Source: Rhodospirillales bacterium
GTDB lineage: Bacteria; Pseudomonadota; Alphaproteobacteria; SMXQ01
Length of the DNA: 64,000 nucleotides
Assembly: GCA_018666775.1 (NCBI GenBank)
Contig: JABIXC010000017.1
Coordinates: 372,001 to 436,000 of the forward strand
Direction: 5' to 3'
How positions within the stretch are numbered: position 1 is the stretch's first letter; every line of letters begins with the position of its first letter. Under the pieces are notes generated by a model. That model was not told where the DNA came from. It saw nothing but the letters and a program-made list of their open reading frames with translations, and did no database searches. The position numbers were made by a program, and so were the translations under genes. Positions 4,586-17,234 of the stretch are shown here, piece by piece.

Positions 4586-4664
4586 GTGATGATTTTTCCC
4601 TGTAATTTTTTCTGACTATAGGTCGGCGCTGGCAATGTGGAAAGAGCGGGTCTATCGTTTGCAC

Positions 4665-5681
4665 ATGATCAGAAAACATTTTTTGAGCCCGTGTCTTGGC
4701 TTATTCGTCCTGTTGGCGACCCTGTCCCCAGCTTGCGCGCAATCCCCTGTTCCCGCCCCGGATCAGCGCGGCAGTTTTTCTGTCTTGATTGAAAACGATG
4801 CCCTGAACGGCACGGACCGCCATTACACCAATGGGCTTAAGCTCACCTGGTTATCCGCCGAAGATGATCTGCCCGAGTTCGGCCACTGGTTAGCCAAAAA
4901 CCTGCCATTGCTATCAAACCGGGGGCGCAAACGCATTGGCTATGCGTTGGGCCAGAACATGTACACGCCCGCAAATATTTCCGTTGATACCCTGCAACCA
5001 AATGAACGCCCCTATGCGGGCTGGCTTTATGGCGAAGTTGGCATTGTTTCAGAAACCGGGTCACGCCTTGATAACGCGACCCTTTCCTTTGGGGTGGTAG
5101 GCCCACTGTCTCAGGCCCAAAACACCCAAGAGGTCTGGCACAAATTGTTTGACCTCAACCGCCCCCGTGGCTGGGCCCATCAACTGAATAATGAACCGAC
5201 GCTAAACCTTACGGTGGAACGGAAATGGCGCAACATCTGGCCGCATTCGTCATATTTGTTCGGGCTTGATGGGGATGTAACCCCCCATGTAGGCGCTGCC
5301 CTTGGTAATGTTTTTACCCATGGGGCTGGCGGAATCACGCTGCGCATTGGCCAAAATCTGCGCAATGATTTTGGCCCACCTCGCATTCGGCCATCCCAAC
5401 CGGGATCAAGCCATTTCACACCGTGGGATGATTTTGGATGGTACCTGTTTGCCGGGGTCGAAGGCCGGTTGGTTTTGCGCAACATGTTTCTCGATGGCAA
5501 CACATTTTCAAACAGCCAAAGCGTTGATAAAAAAACCTTGGTCGGTGATGCCCAATTGGGCGTCGCCTTGGTCTTTTCACGCTTTCGTCTGGCCTTCACC
5601 CAGGTCTTTCGCAGCATTGAATACGTTGGACAGGCAAATGCCGACCGCTTCGCAGCCGTCAGTCTGACCGCACGGTTTTAA
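4665..5681 (+). CDS. LpxR-like outer-membrane lipid A deacylase (DUF2219)
   Basis: Predicted outer-membrane beta-barrel of the DUF2219/LpxR family, which removes the 3'-acyloxyacyl chain of lipid A. The ATG at 4665 gives a clean signal peptide (hydrophobic core then ACAQ/S); an in-frame ATG at 4635 would add ten residues. Family landmarks are ENDALNGTDRHYTNG after the signal, ERPYAGW, and GPLSQAQNTQEVWHKLF, which contain the Asn-Asp, Thr and His positions used by LpxR. Alternating hydrophobic strands and a C-terminal Phe fit a Bam-assembled barrel. It ends directly against the convergent dioxygenase gene. Enzyme activity is inferred from family. Confidence 0.85.
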   Translation: MIRKHFLSPCLGLFVLLATLSPACAQSPVPAPDQRGSFSVLIENDALNGTDRHYTNGLKLTWLSAEDDLPEFGHWLAKNLPLLSNRGRKRIGYALGQNMYTPANISVDTLQPNERPYAGWLYGEVGIVSETGSRLDNATLSFGVVGPLSQAQNTQEVWHKLFDLNRPRGWAHQLNNEPTLNLTVERKWRNIWPHSSYLFGLDGDVTPHVGAALGNVFTHGAGGITLRIGQNLRNDFGPPRIRPSQPGSSHFTPWDDFGWYLFAGVEGRLVLRNMFLDGNTFSNSQSVDKKTLVGDAQLGVALVFSRFRLAFTQVFRSIEYVGQANADRFAAVSLTARF

Positions 5682-11892: not shown

Positions 11893-12822
11893 ATGACTCT
11901 CATCCCCTTCAAAATCGGAAAAACAACACCGGCCAATACCTTCCTTGCCATCTGGGTGGCACGGGCTGCAGGGTTCTATGAAGAACAGGGATTGGATTTA
12001 GAAATCGTCGATATGATCGGCGGCACTGAAACCGGACCGGCGCTGAGTTCAGGCAAAGTTCATCTAATGCACATTGGCATGTCATCGGTTGTGCGCGCCA
12101 ATGCACAAGGTGCCAACGTCACCACCATTGGATCGCTTAGCAACATTGTTCGCAGTGCAATGTTTTTATCCCCCAGTGTGAAGGATGCCAATGACCTCAA
12201 AGGCAAAAATGTTGGCATCAGCAGCACCGGCTCTGAAAGTGACCTGACCACCACTTTGGCCTTAAAAAAGCTTGGCTTGAACCGTACTGATATCACCATC
12301 AAGCAAGTTGGTGTTGAGCGCCTTGCCCCGTTGCTTGATGGCACGGTGCAGGCAACCATGTTGGGTGAGCCCCATCGTTCCAAGGCGATAAGCCTGGGGC
12401 TTTCCCCGATCATGGATTTATTTGCTGACCAAATTCCTTGGCTCTATACCGGGCTTGTCGTGGATCAGGTCTATCTGGAAAATAATTTTGCACCCGTCAA
12501 ACAATTCATGAAGGCAACCGTTGAAGGCAATTATCTGGCCATCAGCAACCCCCGGCAGGCCAAGGCCGTCTTGGCAGATGAATTGGGGCTAACAGACGCA
12601 AATGTTATTGAAACCAGCTATGAAAATTTCAGGAAATTAACACCCCCAAATGCCAACATGACCCGCAAAGGTGCCGAAAATATCCTTGCCGCCATAGATA
12701 TGACCGGCGATTTTCCTGGTGCCAGCTCCAACCTTGATGATCACATGGATTCATCTGTGTTCGACGCATTGAAAGCCGATGGATTTTTCAAGGATATGGA
12801 ACGCAAATATAACGTGTCCTGA
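11893..12822 (+). CDS. NMT1/THI5-type (NitT/TauT-like) binding protein without signal peptide
   Basis: A 309-residue protein of the NMT1/THI5/SsuA periplasmic-binding fold. Typical segments are FLAIWVARAAGFYEEQGLDL near the start, ALSSGKVHLMHIGMSSVVRA, LKGKNVGISSTGSESDL and the LDGTVQATMLGEP hinge. Relatives bind nitrate, sulfonates or pyrimidine precursors and pair with an ABC permease and ATPase. No permease or ATPase gene is adjacent, and no signal peptide precedes the domain: the domain starts at about residue 5. It may therefore act in the cytoplasm, as a sensor or THI5-like enzyme, or the true start may be misread. No clear ribosome site precedes the ATG. Confidence 0.82.
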   Translation: MTLIPFKIGKTTPANTFLAIWVARAAGFYEEQGLDLEIVDMIGGTETGPALSSGKVHLMHIGMSSVVRANAQGANVTTIGSLSNIVRSAMFLSPSVKDANDLKGKNVGISSTGSESDLTTTLALKKLGLNRTDITIKQVGVERLAPLLDGTVQATMLGEPHRSKAISLGLSPIMDLFADQIPWLYTGLVVDQVYLENNFAPVKQFMKATVEGNYLAISNPRQAKAVLADELGLTDANVIETSYENFRKLTPPNANMTRKGAENILAAIDMTGDFPGASSNLDDHMDSSVFDALKADGFFKDMERKYNVS

Positions 12823-12889: not shown

Positions 12890-14203
12890 TCAGTTTTTGC
12901 AGATCACTTGCTTAGCTTCGGCACCGGCACGGCTGTAGACAAACGTGCATGTCATGCCAACCTTGACGGCTTTGCGTTTGACCTTCTTGCCATTCAGGGT
13001 GACCTTGGTTCTGGAACCAGAAACCTTGGCCTTCACTTCTTTACCCTTAAACATAAGGTAAATCCGCCGGTTACCCCGTTTGGTCTTGGTGACCTTTCCG
13101 GTGTGGCGTGCCAGTTTGACGACAACCTTTTTGACCGCACCTTTATAGGTGATCATGGTCTCCAGCTTTTTGATGATGGGTTTCGGCGTGGAAGCAATTT
13201 CCATAATCATCTTTTGCACATCATCCCCGCTTAGCGGCGTCACTTCGCGGCCCTGGGCATTGGCATCTTTGATGAATCCAGGATCATTGACGGTCGCCAT
13301 ATAGGCAGCTCTCAAGGCCTTAACCCTGGCCTTTGGAACATTTGGACCAACCACGTGTGGGCGTCCCATCGCCTTGGAAACCAGCATAAGCTTCCAGTAT
13401 GTCTTGGCTTCTTCAACACTGAAGTCCGGCAACACATGCTTGCGATCAACAATATCCATGATCAACGGGATACCCATTTTTTGCAGTTCGGGATTCTGGG
13501 TCAGGGACAATTGGGCGAGGAAGATAAACTTCCCTGCTTTGATTCCCCGCTTGTTCAGAACCTTGAACGATGACCAGGACTGGCTGATGCCGTGAGTCTC
13601 TCCACGCTGCATTGCCAGATGGACATCAGGTGAGCCTGGATAGCCCCGAATGATCTTGAACTTGGCGCCCATCAGGTTGTTCATCAGGGCTGGATAAATT
13701 TCAGTATCACTGGGCCCGGTTGAGCCAAGGAAGGCCGATTTCGTGAACACGTCTTCAAGGGTCTTGACCTGTGACTTCTTGTTCACCACCAAAACGCCCG
13801 CTTCACTACTCACACTGCCCAACCAGTTGAACTTGGTCGAAATAAATTTAGGTCCCTTGTGCCCCATGATCTGAGCCATGGGGACGGTGCGCTGAACACC
13901 ACCAATGACGCTGCCGTCCTGGGGGGCGATGTTATATATAAAATTAGCAGCAAGGATGCCGCCGGCGCCGGGCATGTTCTGGACAATAAACGTTGGGTGT
14001 CCGGCAATATGTTTGGGCATGTGGCGGGCAAGCGTCCGGCCATAGGTGTCATAACCACCACCCGGGGGGGAGCTTTGAATATATTTGACCCGTTTGCCTT
14101 TGTAGAAATCTGCAATGGCATCAGCAGAAACTTCTTGGGGGGCTGATACCAGACATAATGCCGCCGCACAGGTCGCAACAGCCAATCCTTTAAAAGTATT
14201 CAT
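12890..14203 (-). CDS. TctC-like solute-binding protein with basic C-terminal extension
   Basis: A 437-residue secreted protein of the tripartite tricarboxylate (Bug/TctC) binding type. A signal peptide ends near VSA-DA (residues 26-29). The binding-protein body spans about residues 30-350, with SPPGGGYDTYGRTLARHM and IVQNMPGAGG as the ligand-loop motifs. The last 85 residues are not part of the family. They are rich in Lys/Arg and Val/Thr, look like short beta strands and hold two Cys (MTCTF and VICKN). No tctA or tctB membrane gene is adjacent, so the receptor is an orphan here. The extension may bind an anionic envelope surface or form a separate domain (inference). Confidence 0.85.
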   Translation of the reverse strand: MNTFKGLAVATCAAALCLVSAPQEVSADAIADFYKGKRVKYIQSSPPGGGYDTYGRTLARHMPKHIAGHPTFIVQNMPGAGGILAANFIYNIAPQDGSVIGGVQRTVPMAQIMGHKGPKFISTKFNWLGSVSSEAGVLVVNKKSQVKTLEDVFTKSAFLGSTGPSDTEIYPALMNNLMGAKFKIIRGYPGSPDVHLAMQRGETHGISQSWSSFKVLNKRGIKAGKFIFLAQLSLTQNPELQKMGIPLIMDIVDRKHVLPDFSVEEAKTYWKLMLVSKAMGRPHVVGPNVPKARVKALRAAYMATVNDPGFIKDANAQGREVTPLSGDDVQKMIMEIASTPKPIIKKLETMITYKGAVKKVVVKLARHTGKVTKTKRGNRRIYLMFKGKEVKAKVSGSRTKVTLNGKKVKRKAVKVGMTCTFVYSRAGAEAKQVICKN

Positions 14204-14337
14204 TTCATATCTCCCTGTATAAAATTCATCGTTTTTTTCTTTTTATACATTGAGCCTAACACTCCCCCATGTAACTGCAATCAGTTTAAACATCCTGACA
14301 GACCCACTGGGCCCTATTGGAACTTGATCAGATGGCC

Positions 14338-14733
14338 CTAATCCACCTTGTGGGCGGTCAGGAACAGGGCTTTTTCAAGGGCTGCAAAAAATTGCTGGTA
14401 TGGCTTGGCATCACTGACAGCAACCAAATTATGCTGGGCGCTGGAACGAACGGCCGTCTGACCACCTGTACGGCCACGCAAGGTCACGGTCATACGCATA
14501 CGATACCCATCCAACTTTGTGGCACTGACGGTGCCCAATATATTGTCTGCTATATCCACCACAAACCCAAGATCCTGCAATGTGGCAATAACGGCGCGCA
14601 GCAATTTATTATTGTCGGTGGTATCAAATGCCCGCGTTTGTACTGCCCGCAAGGAAACCTGGCTTTTATCTGTAAATAAAATCTGGCGTTTGGAATCAGC
14701 CTGACGCCCCCCAGAACATGGGTGTTGATCCAC
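14338..14733 (-). pseudogene. N-terminally truncated lipoprotein-like gene
   Basis: The readable frame encodes a conserved domain found in small bacterial lipoproteins: QTRAFDTTDNNKLLRAVIATLQDLGFVVD, GTVSATKLDGYRMRMTVTLR, and PYQQFFAALEKALF. The expected leader, a hydrophobic signal and a lipobox, is absent. The frame begins after a TAA nine codons before a GTG at 14733, with no ATG and no hydrophobic stretch. A Cys at P-C-S-G-G may be the remnant of the lipidated residue. I therefore treat it as a decayed copy. It could still be expressed from the GTG as a cytoplasmic protein. It lies beside another broken gene. Confidence 0.55.
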
Positions 14734-14991
14734 CCATACTTGTTTTCGATGATTCTCTTATGGTTGTACTATATCGCAACCCGCTACGCTTGAAAGCATC
14801 AATACGCACTAACTCACTGTATATAGAGGGTAATTGGTTGAATTTTATGCAATTAAAACGGGTGCAGCGATGCGTTCTCTTGAATTGGTCGTATGCAGAA
14901 ATTAGGGGCATTATAAAAAACACCCGCAATACGGGATGCATTTTACGTCAAAAAGACTGGCTTAAAATGAAGAGTTAACAGCAAAGCTGAC
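14734..14991. other. AT-rich gap without a recognisable gene
   Basis: About 258 bases between two damaged genes. Open frames exist on both strands (for example 14718-14978 plus, 14696-14941 minus), but neither has a ribosome site, a family motif or coding-like composition. The stretch is clearly richer in A+T than its neighbours, which fits a scar of deletion or insertion. Confidence 0.5.
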
Positions 14992-15438
14992 TTATGCTTT
15001 GGCCATTTCTTCTAGCTGGGCGCGGAGCAGTTCATTATCTGCTTCCAGGGTCCCCAGCCGAACCGCGACAATATCGCGGATACTAAGCAGGGTCAGGGGT
15101 TTCCCTTCATCCTGGATGGGCAAATGGCGAATACCGTTTTAGATCATCATATCCGTTGCATCCCGAATATCGGTAGCCGGGTTACAACTGATGACATTGC
15201 TGGTCATCACATCGCCAACCAATTTATCAAGGACATCCAACCCGAATTCCTGAAGCCCCCGTGTCACGTCTCGTTCTGAAATAATACCAACAAGGAGGTC
15301 GTTCTGGTCAACCACCACCAAGGCACCAATCCGATTTTCAACCATTAATTTATTGGCATCCCCAAGCGATGAGCCCGGCCTGACCGGGCCAATTAACCCA
15401 CGGTCCATGTCGATAACATCAGAAACGGTAACAGTCAT
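14992..15438 (-). pseudogene. CBS-domain protein gene with an in-frame stop
   Basis: The reading frame from 15438 codes for a two-CBS-domain protein, a type that binds adenine nucleotides and senses energy state. CBS 1 spans VSDVIDMDRG..GIISERDVTRG (residues 5-60). CBS 2 begins at VGDVMTSNVISCNPATD. It is cut by a TAA at 15139-15141 after residue 99 (ATDMMI-stop). The same frame continues without interruption for 48 more codons, NGIRHLPIQDEGKPLTLLSI..RDIVAVRL, then a helical tail, and ends with TAA at 14992-14994. The full product would be about 148 residues. Possible explanations are a nonsense mutation, a sequencing error or stop readthrough. Confidence 0.75.
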
Positions 15439-15454
15439 TTAATTGCCTCACTTG

Positions 15455-15478
15455 CCAATTCGCATACCAATTCGCATG
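15455..15478. repeat. Short tandem repeat upstream of the CBS gene
   Basis: CCAATTCGCATA is followed directly by CCAATTCGCATG, a 12-base unit repeated twice with one mismatch, 17-40 bases before the CBS start. It could be a duplicated binding half-site or a replication slip. Confidence 0.4.
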
Positions 15479-15620
15479 TTTGTGCGATTATGGCAGGAAT
15501 CATGGCGGGCATTGGTTAATATGGCCCTAATTCGAATATATAACTTGATGAAAAAACATCAGCCGCTGACATACGGACACAATCAAAAAGCAGGCCCCGG
15601 ATCACATCATAGGTTGGGCT

Positions 15621-17234
15621 TTAAGCTGCGCGGCCAGATTTGCCGGACTGTTTGCGTTTTGTCGGCGTGTTTTTGCCAGACAAGAGGAATCGATGATAAT
15701 CATCAAGGTCCCCATCAAATGGCTCTACCCTTCCATCGGAAACCAGCAAGAACTTATCCGTGGTCGCTTCCAGCAAGCGCCGATCATGGCTGACCAGAAT
15801 AACCGCACCTGCAAAATTGTTGAGCGCCGTCAGCAATTCTGTTCGGGCATCGATGTCCAGATGGTTGGTTGGCTCATCTAGAATCAACATATTGGGCTTG
15901 TCCAATGTGGCCAGCGCCAGCATCAATCGGGCACGCTCTCCACCAGATAAATCTGAAACTTTGGTCAAAACCTTATCGGCCGAAAAACCAAAGCCCCCCA
16001 ATTGTGTGCGCAACTGTTCCATAGGGAGTTTCGGGCGCAATTGGGCCAAGGTCTGGACCGGTGTTAACGACCCGTCCAGTTCTTCCAACTGGTGCTGGGC
16101 AAAATAGCCAGGGACCCATTTTCTGGCCCGCACCAGCTCGCCGCCCATCAAGGGAAGTTTATCGGCCAGCAATTTGGCCATGGTTGATTTGCCATTGCCG
16201 TTTTTACCCAGCAATGCAATGCGATCATCGGGATCAAGGCGCATGGAAAGGTTCGACAAAATCGGTTTGCCCGGCTCATAGCCGACAGATGCCCCATGCA
16301 TGCTGATCAAGGGGGGGCTGGCTTCCACTGGCTTTGGAATGCGGATCGGTGCCACCCGCTCGTCCACAGGCAGCTCAATGGTTTGCATTTTTGCTAAAGC
16401 CTTCATACGGCTCTGGGCTTGGCGGGCCTTTGAAGCTTTGGCTTTAAAGCGATTAACGAAAGCCTCCATATGGGCGCGCGCTGCTTCATGTTTTTTGGCA
16501 AATGCTGCATCAAGGGCGCGCTTGGCAGTGCGCGTGGTAACAAAGGTTGAATAATCACCGGTATAAAGGGAGAGCTTGCCATGTTCGAGATGCAAAATAA
16601 ATTCAGCGGCATTATCCAAAAGATCGCGATCATGGCTGACGATCAAAACCGTGCCGCGATAGCGTTTCAGGAAGTCCTGGAGCCACAACACCCCTTCTAA
16701 ATCCAGATAGTTGGTTGGTTCATCCAGCAACAAAAGATCAGGATTTGCGAACAAAATGGCCGCCAGTGCCACACGCATGCGCCAACCCCCGGAAAATTCC
16801 GAACAGGGGCGCAGTTGTTCTTCTTCGGCAAAGCCAAGGCCCGATAAAATAGAAGCCGCGCGGGACGGTGCCGAATAGGCATCAATGTCTGCAAGACGCG
16901 TGTAAATATCGCCCAGCGCATCAGGGTCTGTTTCCGTTTCGGCATCTTCAAGCAAGCGTTCGCGTTCATGATCAGCGGCCAAAACTGTGTCCAGCAGGCT
17001 GATATCATTGCCCGGCGCTTCCTGGGCCACCGCCCCTATTTTCCAATTTCTGGGCCATGAAACATCGCCACCATCGGTGCTCAGCTGGCCTAGAATGATC
17101 TTCAACAGCGTCGATTTACCCGCGCCATTGCGACCCACAAGACCAATACGCCGCCCTGCTGGTAAACTCGCCGTAGCGCCACCAATAATTTCGCGACCCG
17201 CAATACGGATGGTGACGTTATCAATGTTCAACAT
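15621..17234 (-). CDS. ABC-F family ATPase, YheS-like
   Basis: Soluble protein of about 537 residues with two ABC ATPase domains, a second ABC-F factor in this window. Domain 1 starts at MLNIDNVTIRIAG with Walker A GRNGAGKST and signature FSGGWRMR; domain 2 has GKNGNGKST and LSGGERARL with Walker B MLILDEPTNHLD. The linker is helical and basic (FKAKASKARQAQSRMKALAK). ABC-F proteins bind the ribosomal E site and tune translation. The FSGGWRMRVALA signature fits the ABCF3/YheS branch rather than Uup. The ATG at 17234 is preferred over an upstream TTG. The basic tail (TPTKRKQSGKSGRAA) is short. Confidence 0.92.
   Translation of the reverse strand: MLNIDNVTIRIAGREIIGGATASLPAGRRIGLVGRNGAGKSTLLKIILGQLSTDGGDVSWPRNWKIGAVAQEAPGNDISLLDTVLAADHERERLLEDAETETDPDALGDIYTRLADIDAYSAPSRAASILSGLGFAEEEQLRPCSEFSGGWRMRVALAAILFANPDLLLLDEPTNYLDLEGVLWLQDFLKRYRGTVLIVSHDRDLLDNAAEFILHLEHGKLSLYTGDYSTFVTTRTAKRALDAAFAKKHEAARAHMEAFVNRFKAKASKARQAQSRMKALAKMQTIELPVDERVAPIRIPKPVEASPPLISMHGASVGYEPGKPILSNLSMRLDPDDRIALLGKNGNGKSTMAKLLADKLPLMGGELVRARKWVPGYFAQHQLEELDGSLTPVQTLAQLRPKLPMEQLRTQLGGFGFSADKVLTKVSDLSGGERARLMLALATLDKPNMLILDEPTNHLDIDARTELLTALNNFAGAVILVSHDRRLLEATTDKFLLVSDGRVEPFDGDLDDYHRFLLSGKNTPTKRKQSGKSGRAA

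Follow-up and report, generated by a model that had tools for sequence, protein, structure and literature searches.

A predicted OB-fold module at the C termini of TctC-like and ABC-type solute receptors, and poly-lysine tails on TctC-like receptors, in an alphaproteobacterial clade

The window analyzed here is a stretch of 64,000 nucleotides from a Rhodospirillales bacterium (GenBank assembly GCA_018666775.1; contig JABIXC010000017.1, positions 372,001 to 436,000). On its minus strand lies a TctC-like open reading frame (ORF) (12890-14203; 437 aa, start ATG), the product of which begins with a probable Sec signal peptide (residues 1-28; 14120..14203), judged from the basic start, hydrophobic stretch, and Ala-rich end of the sequence. 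This is followed on the same strand by a TctC/Bug solute-binding domain delimited with PF03401 and VIA-align (residues 32-352; 13148..14110), a linker that runs from the end of the TctC fold to the first long strand of the next domain (residues 353-364; 13112..13147), and a cationic module with a predicted OB-fold (residues 365-437; 12893..13111), which was delineated from its other copies in the genome, AlphaFold2 modeling, and structural matches to OB-folds. Two Cys codons, both invariant in two module alignments, fall within the module on the minus strand, namely, that of Cys419 in a G-M-x-C motif (12947..12949) and that of its probable cross-strand partner Cys435 (12899..12901).

The Pfam TctC profile (PF03401) matches only residues 56-154 of the protein (E = 3.5e-8; 33.8 bits versus a cut-off of 27), and in a six-frame search of the genome the same locus scored 25.3, which is below the cut-off. 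An AlphaFold2 model of the full protein, built from 33 TctC rows of the source genome, reached a mean pLDDT of 91.6 and a pTM of 0.80, with residues 1-21 being the sole part below a pLDDT of 50. VIA-align matched residues 32-352 of this model to 4x9t (Z = 27.0; rmsd 2.9; 282 aligned residues), 7ndr (Z = 25.9), and 2qpq (Z = 25.5), and the product shows the two-lobe TctC fold. The earlier note had placed the end of the family near residue 350; indeed, the TctC structural matches end at residue 352, which places the C-terminal 85 residues outside the family fold, and none of the VIA-align matches listed for the product extends past residue 362. The same note had described the remainder as Lys/Arg-rich and beta-like with two Cys, and the model agrees: the 85 residues are Lys/Arg-rich and all-beta and include C419 and C435, with a net charge of +19 over the last 70 residues. 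We conclude that the product is a TctC/Bug receptor with an 85-residue basic, folded C-terminal domain.

Neither tctA nor tctB adjoins the gene, as was noted before. On one side is an NMT1-like ORF (11893-12822, plus strand), and the interval from 14203 to 15621 holds no ORF of 150 aa or more. The former ORF is convergent with the TctC gene and encodes an NMT1/THI5-like solute-binding protein (SBP) with no evident signal peptide at its listed start. A promoter and terminator scan around the TctC gene gave weak consensus matches only. Orphan receptors are reported to be usual in the TctC/Bug family (PMC5812351), and adjacency to tctA/tctB is no strict criterion of membership. Elsewhere in the window, an ORF at 4635-5681 (plus strand) encodes an LpxR-type outer membrane lipid A deacylase (PF09982; E = 1.4e-106), indicating that lipid A is probably present.

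When folded alone with an alignment of 42 module rows, the C-terminal segment (69 to 71 residues in its various copies) attained a pLDDT of 94.4 in AlphaFold2. Prediction therefore yielded an ordered domain and not disorder, in keeping with the suggestion from the sequence that the receptor has a new architecture, its C terminus forming a module of its own. Foldseek searches with this model recovered OB-folds, including cold-shock proteins, CusF, lysyl-tRNA synthetase, and the DUF1344 protein 3k6o, with a best E-value of 8.8e-3 and nothing under 1e-3. VIA-align likewise matched it to the self-assembly domain of an S-layer protein (9fs9; Z = 8.5), PriB (7.6), CusF (2vb2; 7.5), and YobA (4qy7; 6.5). 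On the strength of the models, the module is predicted to be an OB-fold barrel, the call of fold being good and that of homology weaker. The model pairs strand 418-423, which carries Cys419, with strand 432-436, which carries Cys435, and from this pairing the two Cys probably form one cross-strand disulphide.

Sequence searches gave no comparable placement. A Pfam scan of the last 100 residues of the product recovered no family, and scans of each of the 42 modules gave scattered weak matches with no consistent family: B3 in five modules (best E = 9e-4) and the OB-fold family tRNA_anti-codon in one (1.1e-3), assignments that we dropped as too inconsistent across the set. The BOF family (PF04076) is absent from the 25 listed of the 29 weakly matching families and from two stand-alone modules (see below). 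The CusF profile (PF11604) matched one module of 42 at E = 0.014 and none of the other 41 at E-values up to 1. NCBIfam returned no family for the module alone at E-values up to 1, the best match in a PDB sequence-profile search had an E-value of 0.17, and plasmid and viral sequence collections yielded no relative. Sac7d/Sso7d proteins (PDB profile; E = 0.19 and up) were set aside because Foldseek placed the model among OB-folds. Within the scope of these sequence comparisons, the module is a domain missing from Pfam, NCBIfam, and the sequences of the PDB; in open-licence PMC literature, we found no description of the receptor extension or of the poly-lysine tails described below.

The source genome (2.41 Mb in 19 contigs; 98% complete) has 42 copies of the module at the C termini of 40 receptors, two of which bear tandem copies; in all 40 hosts it occupies the extreme C terminus. 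The motif G-M-x-C ... C is strongly conserved, with the Gly and both Cys invariant in 42/42 copies and the Met present in 90% or more. Such recurrence in 40 proteins, with both Cys kept in every copy, makes the segment far from a chance extension. The hosts comprise 35 TctC proteins, called by similarity to the 12890-14203 protein over the receptor domain as well (two of those scanned had no Pfam match), and five ABC-type SBPs (SBP_bac_1/6/8). The module is hence a clade-specific accessory domain on periplasmic receptors of two unrelated families, the TctC proteins of TTT transporters and the ABC-type SBPs. It is not special to one orphan receptor and is thus more widespread than the earlier note had seen, given that 39 other receptors of this genome carry it, in some cases with TctA as a neighbor.

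One further copy, the 43rd, constitutes a secreted protein of 101 aa by itself (C17:465552-465854; L182:3553-3855, plus strand), encoded in a row comprising TctA, a putative TctB, the stand-alone module, and a TctC with a module. The putative TctB has no Pfam match, and this stand-alone module carries two additional Cys. Stand-alone modules of 99 to 101 aa adjoin module-bearing TctC genes in three genomes, i.e., this one, G001, and G005; the copies in the other two are at L349:2576-2872 (minus strand) and L348:1481-1777 (plus strand). TctC proteins with tandem modules also occur in G003 and G009. Among TctC proteins with two modules in tandem are those at L045, L358, and L359, the two modules of one of them sharing 80% identity, and tandem-module TctC genes directly adjoin TctA in the source genome and in G003.

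The receptors without the module are mostly not devoid of a tail. Among the 47 TctC proteins identified in the genome, a count that might miss more divergent members, 35 have the module, 11 have a poly-Lys end (defined as KKKKK or six consecutive K/R within the 25 C-terminal residues, with two of the 11 having just five K), and one has neither. Such an end was found in 0/142 other ORFs of at least 120 aa in 164 kb of sampled genome, including the window. Likewise, neither a poly-Lys end nor a module was found among 30 full-length TctC ORFs drawn from 20 genomes, each representing a different outside family, a control set picked by homology in which one protein is counted twice and from which one ORF cut by the end of its locus was dropped. 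The C terminus of the 12890-14203 product, whose presence on ordinary TctC proteins would in the earlier note refute its reading, does occur on them within the clade but is absent from the 30 control ORFs of the 20 other families. Six or more consecutive Lys codons are found at 12 genomic positions, seven of which are TctC C termini; the other five are in or near TolA-like, HlyD-like, Lys-rich, and FtsH-like ORFs or antisense to a ClpA-like ORF (names assigned by eye). Poly-lysine is, accordingly, an unforeseen second form of tail at the same receptor end as the module. Many poly-Lys tails (e.g., L056:294-1427, minus strand) are preceded by a short stretch that contains two Cys and perhaps forms a disulphide loop, and two TctC proteins of genus g3 have a similar Cys segment without the lysines.

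When the 47 TctC cores were placed in a quick tree with their tails removed, at least six changes between module and nonmodule states were needed, three of them forced by well-supported branches, with long branches leaving some placements unsure. The module and poly-Lys forms interleave on this tree, and it follows that each replaced the other, or arose, several times.

The phyletic spread of the module is narrow. It was found in 11/11 examined genomes of the order, all from one family, with 7 to 69 matches each, and after the addition of 30 genomes from 30 other families it was still confined to 11/41. With at most 15 candidates scored per genome, it was recovered in 10/385 genomes of the class (five of the own family, four of family f105 with two to four matches, and one of f124) and in 1/398 genomes of the phylum, namely, the source genome itself; these samples overlap. 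The carriers that are named are uncultured metagenome-assembled genomes titled Alphaproteobacteria, Rhodospirillales, or Proteobacteria. This is a real, new, and clade-specific receptor architecture.

For the tails of TctC proteins in relatives, we turned to the TctC rows listed across the order's 11 genomes, taking 30 as loci and reading the ends of the first 60 of the 114 other rows from outside the source genome; all are best matches to a poly-Lys TctC query and not a random draw. In the sister genera g4 and g5, 45 TctC rows comprised 17 with a module, 19 with poly-Lys, and 9 others, eight of which nevertheless show an eight-residue stretch with at least five K/R. Genus g2, seen among the 30 fetched loci, contributed two poly-Lys tails and two modules. 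Genus g3 yielded one module in 15 rows, with neither tail in the other 14 and hence no poly-Lys. In family f105, 7 of the 19 TctC proteins read have a module, and just 2 of the 12 others end in poly-Lys.

The charge of the module differs among these lineages. Its mean net charge is +18.5 in g1 (n = 43), +19.4 in f105 (n = 11), +15.5 in g2 (n = 10), and +15.3 in g4 (n = 27), and it is lower in g5 (+9.8; n = 16), f124 (+6; n = 1), and g3 (+1.4; n = 7). The TctC core (residues 31-330) follows the same course, with means of +21.4 in g1, +20.8 in f105, +14.8 in g2, +17.0 in g4, +12.5 in g5, and +2.9 in g3. This covariation argues against charge as a private property of the module; the module's charge may instead reflect a trend that runs through these receptors in general. 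That the proteome as a whole is basic was rejected for the source genome, where the mean charge per 100 aa is -1.3 for cytoplasmic ORFs and +1.0 for other exported ORFs, by classes that come from a rough script with visible false positives among the "exported" ORFs. At the opposite extreme, TctC proteins of another family (L366 and L386; G025) are extremely acidic, with a core charge of about -28 to -41. The g3 modules keep the fold signature and the Cys at near-neutral charge, which implies that charge alone does not define the module; charge alone as its function is similarly weakened by this genus, given its mean of +1.4 and the 14/15 TctC proteins with neither tail. Five positions of the 69-position profile, R12, R31, K39, R43, and K47, are basic in 89 to 97% of 142 unique modules, a set heavily weighted to family f1, and of four g3 modules inspected, three retain the complete set and one retains three of the five. 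In the alignment, these positions look like a specific site.

With regard to transporter context, 12 TctA matches (11 of which were listed) were recovered in the genome against the 47 TctC proteins. Module-bearing TctC genes adjoin TctA at four sites (TctA at C17:609500, C11:109797, C17:463182, and C17:549691), poly-Lys TctC genes do so at three (TctC at C17:223745, C16:62083, and C10:199002), and the sole plain TctC does so at one (C10:136359). Two of the ABC-type hosts adjoin BPD_transp_1 permeases, one of them together with an ABC ATPase. The occurrence of module hosts beside both TTT and ABC permeases indicates that the carriers serve transporters of two kinds. Some TctA proteins, of about 650 to 700 aa (e.g., L183:2798-4771, minus strand), extend about 220 residues past the part that the TctA profile matches and are perhaps TctA-TctB fusions. 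Two regions (C17:545000-595500 and C17:355000-372000) have TctC/SBP genes amid genes for cupin, glyoxalase-like (VOC), UbiX/UbiD-like, and amidohydrolase proteins (cupin and amidohydrolase by Pfam, the other names by eye), which suggests the use of aromatic acids.

The simplest property common to the OB-fold module and the lysine run, which occupy the same terminus of exported receptors, is binding to something anionic in the envelope. We propose, tentatively and at somewhat less than an even chance, that the two are interchangeable cationic C-terminal anchors that would hold the receptors at an anionic face of the envelope, such as peptidoglycan, the outer leaflet of the inner membrane, or lipid A. 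Dozens of receptors so held would stay near a few shared permeases. The presence of the module on TctC and ABC-type receptors alike argues against a ligand-specific role, and a precedent for anchoring by an OB-fold is furnished by VisP, a periplasmic OB-fold (BOF) protein that is reported to bind peptidoglycan (PMC5636140). The tether to an anionic surface raised by the earlier note, which here too we infer, has become more plausible in that module-less paralogs mostly bear poly-Lys at the same end. Against it stand the near-neutral modules of genus g3, the shared charge trend of module and receptor core, and family f105, in which module-less TctC proteins are basic but only 2/12 have poly-Lys. 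More doubtful is the broader form of the proposal, in which a general, exchangeable cationic anchor, either an OB-fold with a specific anion site or poly-lysine, would retain the soluble receptors of several families of transporter at the surface of the peptidoglycan or membrane in these Gram-negative cells.

Other readings account for part of these observations. OB-folds commonly bind oligo-anions, and the module might offer anionic substrates (carboxylates or aromatic/humic acids) a second, low-specificity site or an electrostatic funnel that feeds the TctC cleft. The retention of most of the five basic positions even in near-neutral g3 modules, as expected of a specific anion site, and the basic receptor cores would fit this role; however, ABC-type SBPs bear the same module, and a lysine run in its place cannot make a binding site. 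Further, the pocket of TphC, in the published description of it, has no positively charged residues (PMC8556258), so that the charge of a ligand need not be matched, and we regard the funnel as unlikely. We hold it equally improbable that the module is a docking or self-assembly domain, whether between receptors, with the stand-alone module, or with a shared acidic partner at the transporters. Here, the top structural match is itself a self-assembly domain (9fs9), secreted modules are encoded beside module-bearing TctC proteins in three genomes, tandem copies exist, and the module signature outlives the loss of charge; yet the 9fs9 score is close to those of the unrelated OB-folds PriB and CusF and may reflect the fold only, poly-Lys tails are ill-suited to a specific interface, and the hosts lie beside permeases of both the TTT and ABC types.

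C-terminal sorting domains are found in bacteria (T9SS and similar systems), and by analogy a C-terminal domain that dozens of secreted proteins share could be a signal that sorts them to the cell surface. This we consider very improbable, since every classified full-length host is a solute receptor, with no enzymes or adhesins among them, no NCBIfam model matches the module, and it alternates with poly-Lys. Finally, the module might have no specific function and be a stabilizing cap, spread by gene duplication in receptors drifting to basic sequence. The joint rise and fall of module and core charge and the very large TctC sets (14 to 122 matches per genome in the 11 genomes of the order) accord with such drift, whereas the repeated alternation with poly-Lys, the two unrelated host families, and the near-invariant Gly, Cys, and basic positions point to selection, making a functionless cap improbable to a marked degree. 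The anchoring of receptors by cationic tails is the best single reading of the data.

That reading bears on a standing puzzle, namely, the dozens to hundreds of TctC receptors that are reported alongside few permeases (PMC5994714). A C-terminal device shared by two receptor families, together with its poly-lysine form, offers a handle on this excess and suggests that the receptors are held in place. In its large TctC set with fewer TctA genes, the source genome resembles Bordetella and Rhodoplanes, for which such paralog sets have been reported (PMC5994714 and PMC5812351). The 12890-14203 product has the TctC/Bug fold of Bug27 (2qpq), TphC (7ndr), and 4x9t over residues 32-352; what sets the receptors of this genome apart from ordinary members, as represented by the control ORFs, is the added OB-fold module or poly-Lys. 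With CusF (2vb2), YobA (4qy7), and BOF/VisP, the module has in common an exported, in our case predicted, OB-fold barrel, and the stand-alone form is alike in build; in contrast to them, it has an invariant Cys pair, a strong positive charge, and a role as a receptor tail, and neither form has a consistent Pfam match. DUF1344 (3k6o) shows a weak structural likeness (Foldseek E = 0.066; probability 0.60) with no match in sequence. In lipoprotein SBPs, the receptor is anchored by an N-terminal lipid. The proposed outcome, a receptor kept at the envelope, would be the same here, with a C-terminal domain or a lysine run in place of the N-terminal lipid; if the proposal is true, the cationic anchor would be a protein-based counterpart of the lipoprotein anchor.
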